46,198 bases of DNA from Clostridiales bacterium (GTDB taxonomy: Bacteria; Bacillota; Clostridia; Oscillospirales; Oscillospiraceae). Of this stretch, positions 31,498 through 36,071 are shown in pieces. A program made the position numbers and the translations under genes. Position 1 is the first letter of the stretch; each line of letters opens with the position of its first letter. The notes under the pieces are model-generated. The model was not told where the DNA came from. It ran no database searches and saw only the letters and a program-made list of their open reading frames with translations. The stretch covers positions 1 through 46,198 of the forward strand of contig JALFRA010000028.1 of NCBI GenBank assembly GCA_022785125.1, read 5' to 3'.

Positions 31498-31535
31498 TTA
31501 GTAGGACACGCCCTGCCAGATCATAGCGTCGGCCA
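31498..31535 (-). repeat. direct repeat copy of the gdhA 3' end
   Basis: These 38 bp are identical to the last 38 bp of gdhA including the stop codon (31748-31785), exactly 250 bp apart. On the minus strand they encode [11 protein letters not shown] plus stop. Identity ends exactly at the stop codon on one side and at the T of TGGCC on the other. Confidence 0.9.
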
Positions 31536-31685
31536 GCCCCAACCTGCGGGGCAGGTTGGGGACCCCATGATTGGAGCTGCTCGGGCGGAATGAATCCGCC
31601 CGGCATTAAGGTTTTGCCTGCCGGTAAAACGCTTGTACGGCGCTTGCGCGCCGCCCCATCTTTGATGGGGCCCCGGTGGCCGACG
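31527..31685 (-). repeat. dispersed hairpin element, copy 1 (gdhA locus)
   Basis: It is bounded by the inverted repeat CGTCGGCCA / TGGCCGACG, derived from the gdhA end. Inside are perfect hairpins: an 11-bp stem at 31537-31561, GGGCGGA/TCCGCCC at 31583-31601, and GCCCCATC/GATGGGGC at 31653-31671. On the minus strand the core from the GTTTT...AAAAC stem through the GGGCGG hairpin to GGGGTCCCC matches copy 2 near rubrerythrin. It begins right at the T-run of the proximal gdhA terminator. No protein is encoded. Confidence 0.8.
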
Positions 31686-31688
31686 AAA

Positions 31689-31721
31689 AAGGAGGGACGC
31701 GGCGCTGCCGCGTCCCTCCTT
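31689..31721 (-). terminator. proximal gdhA terminator
   Basis: A perfect 15-bp stem (AAGGAGGGACGCGGC arm, GCT-type loop), followed on the minus strand by TTTCG. It ends 27 bp after the gdhA stop codon. Confidence 0.88.
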
Positions 31722-31747
31722 GGAAAGTCAGCATAAGGGGGCGTTGC

Positions 31748-33103
31748 TTAGTAGGACACGCCCTGCCAGATCATAGCGTCGGCCACCTTCATGAAGCCGG
31801 CGATGTTGGCGCCCGCCACCAGGTTGCCGGGCATACCGTACTCCTCGGCAGCCTTGGCAGCATTGTGGTAGATGTTGGTCATAATGTCGTGGAGCTTCTG
31901 GTCCACTTCCTCAAAGGTCCAGCTCAGGCGCATGGAGTTCTGGCTCATCTCCAGACCGGAAGTAGCCACGCCGCCAGCGTTGGAAGCCTTGGCGGGGGCA
32001 AAGAGCACGCCGTGCTCCTGGAACCAGGCAACCGCCTCGGGAGTGGAGGGCATATTGGCGCCCTCGGCCACGGCAAAGCAGCCGTGCTCCACCAGAGCCT
32101 TGGCGCCCTCCAGGGGCAGCTCGTTCTGGGTGGCGCAGGGGAGAGCGATGCCGCAGGGAACGGTCCAGATGCCCTGGCAGCCCTCGTAATACTTGGCGGT
32201 GGGGACGTAATCCAGGTAGGTCTTGATGCGGTCCCGTTTGACCTCCTTGATCTCCTTGATTACCTTGTAGTCGATGCCGTTCTCGTCCACAATGTAGCCA
32301 TTGGAGTCACTCATGGCGATGACCTTACCGCCCAGCTGAGTGGCCTTCTGGTTGGCGTAGATGGCCACGTTGCCGGAGCCGGAGATCACCACGCTCTGGC
32401 CCTGGAAGGACTTGCCGGCGGCCTTGAGCATCTCGTTGGTAAAGTAGCACAGGCCGTAGCCGGTGGCCTCGGTGCGGGCCAGAGAGCCGCCATAGGTCAG
32501 GCCCTTGCCGGTGAGCACGCCGTTGAACTCGTTGCGGATACGCTTATACTGGCCAAACAGGTAGCCGATCTCACGAGCGCCCACGCCGATATCGCCGGCG
32601 GGCACGTCGGTGTCGGGACCGATGTGCCGCTGCAGCTCAGTCATGAAGGACTGGCAGAAACGCATGACCTCGTTGCTGCTCTTGCCCTTGGGATCAAAGT
32701 CAGAGCCGCCTTTGCCGCCGCCCATGGGCAGGCCGGTCAGGGAGTTCTTAAACACCTGCTCAAAGCCCAGGAACTTGATGATGGACAGGTTGACGGAGGG
32801 GTGGAAGCGCAGGCCGCCCTTGGAGGGGCCGATGGCAGTGGAGAACTGCACCCGGTAACCGCGGTTTACCTGGACCTGGCCCTTATCGTCCACCCAGGAC
32901 ACACGGAACAACAGGCTGCGCTCAGGCTCCACCATGCGGTCCATAATGCCCATCTTGGCCAGCTCGGGCTTCTGGTTAAACACGGGCTGGAGGGATTCCA
33001 TAACCTCACCTACAGCCTGGAGGAACTCGGGCTCATGGGAGTTCTTCTTGCAGACGCCGTCATACACGCTCTGAAGGTAAGAATTGGTGATCGTAAATGC
33101 CAT
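31748..33103 (-). CDS. gdhA: NADP-type glutamate dehydrogenase
   Basis: The 451-residue protein has the Glu/Leu dehydrogenase motif [16 protein letters not shown] (catalytic Lys near residue 125), the substrate-binding [26 protein letters not shown], and a Rossmann domain with [13 protein letters not shown]. Length fits the hexameric NADP-dependent class. It interconverts 2-oxoglutarate plus ammonia and glutamate. The start at 33103 has AAAGGGG 9 nt upstream; the frame is open further up to 33208 but without a ribosome site. Its last 38 bp are duplicated 250 bp downstream. Confidence 0.95.
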
Positions 33104-33196
33104 ATTGCCAAACCCCTTTGCCTGGCGGCCCTGCGGGACCAGCCAAAATTTAATCATGCTCAGCTGTTTAGAGGAACACTTTGCTATGTTGAAGTT

Positions 33197-33225
33197 ATTA
33201 TAATGCATACGTTCATGAAATGCAA
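33197..33225 (-). promoter_or_regulatory. gdhA promoter
   Basis: On the minus strand TTGCAT, a 17-nt spacer and a perfect TATAAT. The transcript would have a leader of about 85 nt. Confidence 0.65.
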
Positions 33226-33315
33226 GAGAAAAAATAAGAATTGCATATTTGACGAAAAATGCTTGATTTGACCGGGGGGAAGTGCACCAGTTTGACTGCT
33301 GGGTTGCAAAGAAGA

Positions 33316-33343
33316 ACGGGCGATCGCATTGACGACCGCCCGT
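33316..33343 (-). terminator. hairpin after the small membrane protein gene
   Basis: ACGGGCG and CGCCCGT form a 7-bp stem with a 14-nt loop, followed on the minus strand by TTCTTCTTTG. Confidence 0.5.
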
Positions 33344-33358
33344 GTCATATGTACTACC

Positions 33359-33562
33359 TTAATTCTTCTTTTTGCCGACCACACAGAGGATGATACCGAC
33401 TACCAGCAGGATCACGCCAATGACGATAAACATGGTGCCGGGGTTAGCGGTACCGCTGCTCATGATGCTGGTGAACTGGGCCTCCAAGCTGTTGTTCTGC
33501 ATAAAACCGTAACCGGCACAGCCAATACCGGCGATGATCAGAATGATACCCAGAATAAACAT
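33359..33562 (-). CDS. small two-helix membrane protein
   Basis: The 67-residue protein has two membrane segments (MFILGIILIIAGIGCAGYGF and TMFIVIGVILLVVGIILCVV) around a short polar loop, ending in KKKN. It resembles DUF3185-like small proteins, but that assignment is tentative. The start at 33562 has AAAGGAG 7 nt upstream; the longer in-frame start lacks a site. It is upstream of gdhA in the same direction but separated by a terminator and the gdhA promoter, so it is probably its own unit. Confidence 0.65.
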   Translation of the reverse strand: MFILGIILIIAGIGCAGYGFMQNNSLEAQFTSIMSSGTANPGTMFIVIGVILLVVGIILCVVGKKKN

Positions 33563-35013: not shown

Positions 35014-35025
35014 GGGGATAAGGAA

Positions 35026-35184
35026 ATGGATCTCGGCTTTTATAGTAGTAGTATAGATCGTGTGATATCTATCATGTATGGTCCCATCATCGCCCAGATT
35101 GTATTGGGCGGAATCCTGGCAGCGGCAGGCGTTTTTATTCTGGTGCTGGGACACCGCCGTTACCGCCGCAAACATGAAAAGTAA
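35026..35184 (+). CDS. 52-residue single-helix membrane protein
   Basis: The ATG has AAGG just upstream. The product has a polar N-terminus (MDLGFYSSSIDRVISIMYG), one membrane helix (IAQIVLGGILAAAGVFILVLG) and a basic tail (HRRYRRKHEK). It directly follows the XRE membrane-protein gene, in the pattern of a two-gene unit. It is unrecognised but has good membrane-protein features. Confidence 0.55.
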   Translation: MDLGFYSSSIDRVISIMYGPIIAQIVLGGILAAAGVFILVLGHRRYRRKHEK

Positions 35185-35222
35185 GGTGAAATAAAAAAGT
35201 TTTCGGAATTTGAAAAAAACAC

Positions 35223-35251
35223 TTGACGGCAGAGTTAAGTTGTGCTATCTT
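35223..35251 (+). promoter_or_regulatory. rubrerythrin promoter
   Basis: TTGACG, a 17-nt spacer and TATCTT, 90 bp before the gene. Confidence 0.65.
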
Positions 35252-35260
35252 AATATCAGA

Positions 35261-35273
35261 AATGATAATCATT
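35261..35273 (+). promoter_or_regulatory. Fur/PerR-type operator
   Basis: AATGATAATCATT is a perfect 6-1-6 palindrome and matches the core of Fur-family boxes (TGATAATNATTATCA). It lies at the expected transcription start of the reverse rubrerythrin gene. Clostridial reverse rubrerythrins are known PerR-regulated genes (established in C. acetobutylicum), so PerR repression is plausible here. Confidence 0.6.
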
Positions 35274-35340
35274 ACTGATTAGCACTTCCAGCTAACCCGA
35301 AATTGAATAAAATAAATCATTAAATTAGGAGGAAAATCAC

Positions 35341-35883
35341 ATGAAAAAGTGGGTCTGCTCTGTTTGCGGTTATGTTCACGAGGGGGATTCCGCCCCTGAT
35401 TTCTGCCCCATCTGTAAGGCTCCCAAGGAGAAGTTCGTGCTCCAGGGTGGCGATCGTACCTGGGCTGCTGAGCACGTTGTCGGTGTTGCCAAGGGCGCTC
35501 CCGAGGAGATCATCCAGGGCCTGCGCATGAACTTTGAGGGCGAGTGCTCCGAGGTCGGTATGTATCTGGCCATGAGCCGTGTGGCTCATCGTGAGGGCTA
35601 CCCCGAGATCGGCCTGTACTGGGAGAAGGCCGCTCTGGAGGAGGCCGAGCACGCCGCCAAGTTTGCCGAGCTGCTGGGTGAGGTTCTGACCGATTCCACC
35701 AAGAAGAACCTGGAGATGCGTGTGGACGCCGAGAACGGCGCTACCGCCGGCAAGTTCGAGCTGGCCAAGCTGGCCAAGGAGCACAACCTGGACGCCATCC
35801 ACGACACCGTCCACGAGATGGCTCGCGACGAGGCCCGCCACGGCAAGGCTTTCGAGGGCCTGCTGAAGCGTTACTTCGGCTAA
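35341..35883 (+). CDS. reverse rubrerythrin (N-terminal rubredoxin domain)
   Basis: In this 180-residue protein, the rubredoxin-like iron site comes first (CSVCGY near residue 6, CPICKA near 22), followed by a diiron four-helix domain with [20 protein letters not shown] and a C-terminal [11 protein letters not shown]. This domain order is that of reverse rubrerythrin, an NADH-linked peroxide and oxygen reductase of anaerobes. A strong AGGAGG lies upstream. The last codons are partly copied, inverted and direct, in the repeat element just downstream. Confidence 0.95.
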
Positions 35884-35894
35884 TCTGAATACCT

Positions 35895-35929
35895 AAAAGA
35901 TCCCGGTCCAACGGACCGGGATCTTTTTT
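35895..35929 (+). terminator. rubrerythrin terminator
   Basis: A 15-bp stem (AAAAGATCCCGGTCC arm, AAC loop) with TTTTTT. The next base starts the repeat element. Confidence 0.9.
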
Positions 35930-36071
35930 GCCGTGGCGGGCCTCGTCACCGAGGGTTTTGGCGAAGCTGAAACCTCGAAGCCGGGCGGATTCACTCCGCC
36001 CGAGCAGATGAAATCATTGGGGTCCCCATGGGATTTGTCCCATGGGGATTGCCCACCACGGCAAGGCTTTC
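35928..36071 (+). repeat. dispersed hairpin element, copy 2 (rubrerythrin locus)
   Basis: The left end TTGCCGTGGCGGGCCTCGTC (35928-35947) is a perfect 20-nt reverse complement of the rubrerythrin coding segment at 35827-35846. The right end (36051-36071) copies 35833-35853 in direct orientation with one mismatch in 21. The ends can pair as a stem. Between them the core matches copy 1, with the GGGCGGA/TCCGCCC stem at 35983-36001 and GGGGTCCCC, then a locus-specific 9-bp hairpin at 36024-36047. It begins at the terminator T-run exactly as in copy 1. Confidence 0.8.

Follow-up and report, generated by a model that had tools for sequence, protein, structure and literature searches.

The stretch of DNA analysed here (the window) covers 46,198 nucleotides (nt) of contig JALFRA010000028.1 of a Clostridiales bacterium and carries two copies of a small unit, one at the end of gdhA on the minus strand and the other at the end of a rubrerythrin-like gene on the plus strand. 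The gdhA product matches the model of the NADP-specific glutamate dehydrogenase over its cut-off, and the rubrerythrin-like product matches rubrerythrin models below their cut-off only, over residues 3-33. The order of the element, read 5' to 3' on the strand of its core, is as follows. The gene body ends in a segment L and is followed by a left gene end (R* and tail* with the stop codon), sometimes by a terminator, then by an inverted segment R'L' (the putative guide), the structured core, a second R with the remainder of the gene and, lastly, the native downstream sequence. In the window, the following features were identified, each given with the evidence on which it was placed.

31748-31785, minus strand: left gene end of gdhA (R*, tail* and stop), which completes gdhA today (repeat search; empty sites in relatives)
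31785/31786, minus strand: insertion point L|R* in gdhA (repeat search)
31689-31721, minus strand: terminator hairpin accompanying the left end of gdhA, not the native one (inverted repeat; the native terminator differs)
31675-31685, minus strand: putative gdhA guide R'L', complementary to gdhA across L|R* (complementarity; conserved across species)
31536-31674, minus strand: structured core of the gdhA unit, with P0, P1, P2, P3, an A-rich linker, GGGG and P4 (alignment, covariance model, folding)
31583-31601, minus strand: P3 hairpin of the gdhA unit, GGGCGGATTCATTCCGCCC (pattern search)
31537-31561, minus strand: P4 hairpin of the gdhA unit, ending in the GGGG that adjoins the right gene end (sequence, pairing counts, folding)
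31498-31535, minus strand: right (native) gene end of gdhA with its stop, no longer needed by gdhA (repeat; relatives)
31443-31492, minus strand: native gdhA terminator, common to the empty-site genomes G018 and G002 (repeat; relatives)
35833-35883, plus strand: left gene end of the rubrerythrin-like gene (R*, tail* and stop) (repeat search)
35832/35833, plus strand: insertion point L|R* in the rubrerythrin-like gene (repeat search)
35895-35927, plus strand: terminator hairpin and T-run, with the guide directly after it (inverted repeat; relatives)
35928-35947, plus strand: putative rubrerythrin guide R'L', a 20-nt exact complement of 35827-35846 (inverted repeat)
35948-36050, plus strand: structured core of the rubrerythrin unit, P1 absent (alignment, covariance model, folding)
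35983-36001, plus strand: P3 hairpin of the rubrerythrin unit, GGGCGGATTCACTCCGCCC (pattern search)
36023-36048, plus strand: P4 hairpin of the rubrerythrin unit (sequence, pairing counts, folding)
36051-36074, plus strand: right copy of the rubrerythrin gene segment, 24 nt at 92%, diverged beyond (repeat; intact right ends in G018, G007 and G003)

The left and right gene ends of gdhA form an exact direct repeat of 38 nt with a spacing of 250, and the two cores match at 82% over 57 nt. The hairpin pattern is found four times in the window, corresponding to two places on both strands, against a mean of 0.07 after shuffling (100 shuffles, none with four matches). A sequence-only reading of this DNA had described two units with a shared hairpin core and a common order of gene segment, stop, terminator, inverted segment, core and direct segment, and this description is confirmed by the coordinates and the repeats. 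A simple consensus scan listed a promoter-like site inside neither of the two units. Just past the rubrerythrin core, the window holds an open reading frame of 136 amino acids (36042-36452) without Pfam match over cut-off, and the expected native gene end is gone there after 24 nt.

The two units are part of a family in their own genome. With up to two mismatches, the hairpin pattern has 26 matches at 19 places. One of these (L019) was judged false by eye, and a covariance model of P2 and P3 was built from the other 18, yielding 42 matches at E <= 0.001. A repeat of the host gene end flanks 37 of the 42 copies, above the 99th percentile of all cross-pairings, of which the top score (47) exceeds that of several of the 37. 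The ends thus differ from locus to locus and match the gene in which they lie, in line with the sequence-only reading; the search of the genome returned neither fixed termini nor cores restricted to the two places in the window. In the 29 copies located at 3' ends, 25-139 nt separate the insertion point from the last base of the stop codon, between 40 and 80 nt in 23 of them. The other eight of the 37 copies, whose strands were set by hand, lie at the 5' ends of genes in opposite orientation, whose start regions are duplicated. The expectation that every copy lies at a terminator T-run proved false, such a run adjoining only some copies; in many, as judged by eye, no more than about 20 nt separate the stop codon from the start of the guide. 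Comparison of the left and right ends in the 37 copies gave 137 silent and 40 amino-acid-changing codons, and the differing bases are distributed as 36, 19 and 140 over codon positions 1, 2 and 3. Judged by these substitutions, both gene ends are conserved as coding sequence. At L034, at the 5' end of a gene which we take to resemble release factor 3, the left copy has its own ribosome site and an ATG, and the native right copy seems by eye to start with TTG. In L087, about 60 nt are inserted in the P3 loop of one core, resulting in a match of 135 nt versus the usual ~75.

The complementarity of the inverted segment to the gene extends over the insertion point and is not confined to the repeat. 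We interpret this segment as a guide spanning the point, which refines the earlier description of an inverted end that matches the repeat only. The part of the gene covered by the guide usually amounts to about 5 nt in L and 8 nt in R. Compared with cross-locus pairs in the own genome, 35 of the 37 guides score above the 95th percentile and 29 above the 99th. A wider set, made of the first 90 of 117 model matches (copies at contig ends were skipped and counted as misses, tandem units counted separately), contains 84 distinct copies, 72 of them with the repeat and 59 of those with a guide at the chosen score. The control for this set includes same-gene pairs from different species (57 of the 72 above its 95th percentile, 28 above its 99th), and the own-genome control is relied on instead. 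The guides are centred on L|R, with a bias of the site towards GA|GG (G at -2 in 37 of the 59, A at -1 in 28, G at +1 in 40 and G at +2 in 31) that may partly stem from the alignment of the repeat boundaries. In 13 gdhA elements, the mean pairwise identity is 0.92 for the guide, 0.55 for the filler and 0.92 for the coding tail; these guides were retrieved with a search expression, a procedure that is biased towards conserved guides and missed G004. The downstream R also fits the guide, with 45/46, 49/50, 44/50, 49/53 and 49/51 matches at the first five positions of the covered guides, a fit that local alignment favours by construction. The guided insertion first suggested on speculative grounds is better supported by this complementarity and its offset, and we still infer rather than observe it.

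The core is built of serial hairpins over about 100-140 nt. Ten pairs of P2 and P3 have changed on both sides (0/500 shuffles), in a structure that was itself derived from this alignment. An asymmetry between G.T and A.C cells is expected of an RNA read on the guide-core-R strand, but not of a hairpin in DNA. A count over the first 92 rows (84 distinct), taking P2, the five upper pairs of P3 and P4, gave 50 G.T to 10 A.C, made up of 11:4 in P2, 7:4 in upper P3 and 32:2 in P4 (74 stems); the later rows left out of this count have four G.T and six A.C. The G.U in P4 is partly one inherited position recurring in related copies. Folded as RNA, the two window units have predicted z-scores of -12.4 and -8.7, and the guide is predicted to pair with L-R* of the gene. 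The core likely acts as an RNA, with its pairing at the RNA level. Rfam scans did not assign the core to a known RNA family: at the gathering score, nothing was found in the window except 5S rRNA, and at E <= 5 no match lies over any core of seven loci, the two matches over the gathering score in that scan being a tRNA and a riboswitch, both in L200.

All 20 genomes examined from this gut-type genus, the own genome included, are positive, with 6-52 matches each. Across the order, at least 25 of 295 sampled genomes and 14 of 148 genera have a match at E <= 1e-5, which is a lower bound with 16 candidates scored per genome. Among 15 further loci from other genera, repeat and guide are present in six (L268, L269, L271, L272, L273 and L276, all of the same family), the repeat only in two (L266, and L267 with a terminator repeat) and neither in five (L270, L274, L277, L279 and L280); the remaining L275 and L278 were cut wrongly at contig ends. 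L071 has repeat and guide, and L069 a repeat without recognised guide. A second core type is located near terminators or tRNA genes (L200, L201, L267, L270 and L277, and L083, L085 and L086 of the own genome). Its 3' end is a different one (GGAATCC or GGAACCC, for example), several copies are followed by a downstream stretch like GGGACGGTTAAAATCGATATT, and gene-end duplication was not seen in it. Genomes of another family carry many copies with a longer P2 (58 matches in G042). No gene-end repeat was found in the viewed copies from G042, G066 and G128 (L070, L279 and L280), which may represent an ancestral or different form. The gdhA loci of 80 other genomes have no core at E <= 0.01, the exact pattern has 0 hits in viral contigs, and a distant blastn search returned one plasmid and one short "phage" record, both of a variant type.

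Tandem arrays are present in relatives and could result from repeated re-insertion or else from unequal crossing-over. At L090 (G017), at the end of a host gene that is presumably RNase III-like, three near-identical 210-bp units stand in tandem and are followed by a further gene end and guide without core. Two tandem units at one gene in L096 (G006) have different guide regions, the first of which resembles that of the gdhA element; this mix suggests an exchange of cores between loci.

The observed anatomy, guide complementarity, conserved stems, empty sites and decayed units can be accommodated, tentatively and with somewhat less than even confidence, by small and probably non-autonomous homing-like mobile elements of about 200-350 bp, each addressed to one gene and regenerating the end of that gene. 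The guide would base-pair with the gene across L|R, thereby setting the target and the left boundary. The carried or duplicated gene end would rebuild the gene, making the insertion nearly harmless, and the displaced native end, which sits past the core, would be free to decay. The unit of gene end, guide and core would move between alleles of one gene, the guide-core RNA directing insertion into empty alleles (homing) with the help of machinery acting in trans. New gene-specific versions might arise through pairing of the guide with the end of another gene, followed by capture of that end by the unit. Guided targeting and RNA-mediated movement are inferred. A more far-reaching version, which we consider doubtful, is a new class of RNA-addressed mobile element, in which a core RNA of ~100-140 nt with a contiguous guide of ~11-20 nt would insert in either orientation near gene ends, rebuild the end and gain addresses by capturing new gene ends; this RNA may be a small ribozyme working like a group I guide.

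The relatives provide empty, occupied and decayed sites. The 3' end of gdhA is readable in 19 genomes: 11 are occupied, five are empty and two keep the left end and the guide with the rest lost. In G013, gdhA runs off the contig inside the element, and G014 is not in the gdhA set. The native terminator seen in the empty G018 and G002 stands after the right end in G000 and G004, whose left end is followed by another terminator; the identity between left and right filler is 0.32 and 0.41 in G000 and G004, compared with 0.94 in G015 and 0.89 in G009. By the evidence of the terminators, the right end of gdhA is the native one in G000 and G004. Occupancy needs at least four changes on a gene tree of 18 rows, with decayed and truncated units scored as occupied, and does not differ from shuffled labels in its clustering. 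Over 11 species, the distance between cores correlates weakly with that of the gene body (r 0.28, p 0.18); the values are r 0.28 (p 0.07) for the left filler and r 0.26 (p 0.03) for the right filler.

The recF gene (best model match below its cut-off, from 200 residues given) is present in 19 genomes, occupied in G000 and G008 and decayed in G006. Compared with G004, the nearest relative for this gene, recF of G000 differs at 9 of 300 nt to the left of L|R (one of the last 60) and at 18 of 91 in the left end; the right end has six differences in 91 nt, which all fall within its first 21 nt. The left end in G000 is likely foreign. The fhs gene (formate-tetrahydrofolate ligase model, partial protein, below cut-off) is occupied in G000, G017 and G019, and in the other 17 of the 20 genomes no core lies within the 330 nt shown. 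This occupancy (3/20) is better evidence of gain than that of gdhA. At the decayed loci (gdhA in G007 and G010, recF in G006), the right end is lost and the gene is complete through the left end.

Several observations weigh against the homing-like explanation. Five of the 42 own copies (L029, L046, L083, L085 and L086) have no repeat. As the guide still fits the left site L|R* of its own element, the element is not immune to itself; this speaks against a simple nuclease drive and would make repeated re-insertion possible. The patchy occupancy of gdhA could be due to precise loss by recombination between the two gene ends; as such recombination also gives precise empty sites, gdhA alone is no proof of gain. 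At recF, the two ends of G000 are equally far from G018 and G007 (left end 21 and 15 of 91, right end 20 and 14 of 91), so that the foreign left end is deduced from G004 only. The left end of fhs in G000 is nearest to G004 (4/60) and the right end to G002 (1/60), which makes the polarity ambiguous. On the RNA side, the first, unfiltered count (104 distinct rows, all P2 and P3 pairs) gave 25 G.T and 35 A.C, and the six lower pairs of P3 have three G.T versus 21 A.C, the latter confined to one outermost pair, which apparently does not form in a subtype. As these counts run opposite, the RNA reading leans mainly on P4. Among 60 relatives, none of five mobility-gene families tracks the elements. 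Moreover, a carried foreign end would account less well than local duplication or concerted evolution for the ends that are near-identical within a species at rubrerythrin (G018, G007, G003), fhs (G019, G017) and gdhA (G015, G009), with the intergenic part included where one exists.

This last point underlies the best of the rival explanations, a long target-site duplication, to which we give only limited credence. Guide and core alone would insert, nicks at L|R and near the transcript end or just past the stop would double the host segment, and unlike ends would result from later recombination. Among the four rubrerythrin loci viewed, the ends are near-identical within species in three (G018, G007 and G003), species-specific terminators and intergenic part included, and not in G000. 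The ends of gdhA in G015 and G009 behave in the same way, the fhs ends are identical in G019 and near-identical in G017 (by eye), and the guide follows directly after the T-run or the stop. This is countered by gdhA in G000 and G004, where left and right terminators differ and the right one is native, and by recF in G000, where the left end departs from G004 from L|R onward. The earlier proposal that the ends are copied from the host gene fits rubrerythrin in G018, G007 and G003, fhs in G017 and G019 and gdhA in G015 and G009, and does not fit gdhA in G000 and G004, with their non-native left terminator, or recF in G000, with its foreign-looking left end. The data contain signs of an imported end as well as of local duplication or homogenisation, and the origin of the end may differ by locus.

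An intron-like RNA is unlikely. The guide would act as an internal guide sequence that pairs with L (as P1) and with the downstream R (as P10), and the unit from R* through the core would be spliced out, joining L to the native right end. The complementarity of the guide to joined L-R, the fit of the downstream R and the coding conservation of both gene ends agree with such a process, and a group I guide pairs with both exons alike in the part of the source consulted (PMC3984707). However, eight of the 37 copies lie antisense to their gene, where removal from its mRNA by splicing cannot be required. The core of serial hairpins has no Rfam match, and in gdhA of G007 and G010 and recF of G006 the right end is lost, the gene being complete via the left end.

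A homing process driven by an OMEGA-like RNA-guided nuclease, in which the core would be a scaffold with a 5' guide and a cut in the empty allele would be repaired with the occupied allele as template, is still less probable. The guide indeed lies directly 5' of a structured core, and a short unlike patch (21 nt) is found to the right of the core at recF. On the other hand, the guide fits the occupied allele as well as the empty one, and the nucleases are missing or patchy. The searches in the 60 relatives covered RVT_1, Y1_Tnp, IscB, TnpB and IS110; several of these genomes are incomplete, so single gene absences are weak. IscB (PF14239) is over cut-off in 0/60 genomes, with one weak match below cut-off in G032. 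TnpB is over cut-off in six of the 20 genus genomes with weak matches in seven more, and all 20 carry elements. RVT_1 is over cut-off in seven of the 20, and none was found in G029 (16 copies) or G042 (58), so a reverse transcriptase tracking copy number, as once envisaged, does not hold. Y1 transposase matches occur in 10 of the 20 and in neither G029 nor G042; IS110 is over cut-off in nine, with weak matches in four more and none in G029, which has none of the five families. The unit itself (~250 bp) contains no homing endonuclease gene or integrase.

Template switching or snap-back at hairpins during replication, with core and inverted segment as by-products and no targeting, is very improbable. 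Snap-back events typically leave a segment in both inverted and direct copies, but such a process alone does not explain one core and one guide offset in dozens of genes, nor why many species have the element at the same site of a gene. For gdhA, snap-back starting from a GCGTC microhomology was considered and dropped, the right-most copy in G009 resembling a decayed unit (by eye).

If the homing-like explanation is true, this would be a natural system that reaches defined coding sites via a short guide specific to the locus, without disabling the target gene, hence a new kind of programmable insertion and a new small structured RNA. Its genome-wide record, with dozens of sites per genome, tandem arrays and decayed copies, would help in working out the mechanism. 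It would also suggest that the ends of genes in these bacteria were replaced or doubled time and again.

In the literature and databases searched, and on the strength of those searches only, no description of such an element or arrangement was found. Repetitive extragenic palindromic (REP) sequences, miniature inverted-repeat transposable elements (MITEs) and insertion sequences (IS) have constant termini, unlike the outer ends described here, which vary by locus and match the gene in 37 of 42 copies, as the sequence-only reading had already noticed for two. In IS608, the guide is a tetranucleotide. For IS200/IS605 and REP, a guide beside a hairpin defines the cleavage or target site by pairing, and non-autonomous hairpin units exist, according to the parts of the sources consulted (PMC5934647, PMC8266576). 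Both traits are probably shared by the present elements, which differ in their guide of ~11-20 nt, the G.U-rich P4 that suggests RNA, the lack of tracking by Y1 and the replacement of the gene end. The OMEGA RNAs of IscB and TnpB are structured RNAs with an adjacent guide matching the insertion site, a similar layout; in contrast, IscB was found in 0/60 genomes here, TnpB is patchy and the elements have no Rfam match. IS110 uses a recombinase and a bridge RNA with split target guides, whereas the guide described here is contiguous and IS110 does not track the elements.

In mobile group II introns, an RNA guide defines the DNA site, as stated in the part of the source consulted (PMC3898094). 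Retrohoming shares this principle, but our elements have no Rfam match, their guide spans both sides of the junction and reverse transcriptase does not track them. Group I introns have a guide that pairs with both exons flanking the insertion site (PMC3984707, in the part consulted). The likeness lies in a short guide complementary to both flanks, here to L and to both copies of R, in the use of one position of a gene in many species and in the patchy presence. The elements differ by the lack of a recognised catalytic core (P3-P8; P, Q, R, S), their serial hairpins being Rfam negative with pseudoknots outside the model, and by their very small size, their occurrence in both orientations to the gene, the carried or duplicated gene end and the lack of a homing endonuclease gene. 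As no catalytic core was found, we do not claim them as group I introns. Finally, some integrative elements insert inside a gene and restore the 3' end of their target. Insertion within a gene combined with a replacement end is common to both; here, the unit is without integrase, and one core serves many target genes, each addressed by a putative guide specific to its locus.

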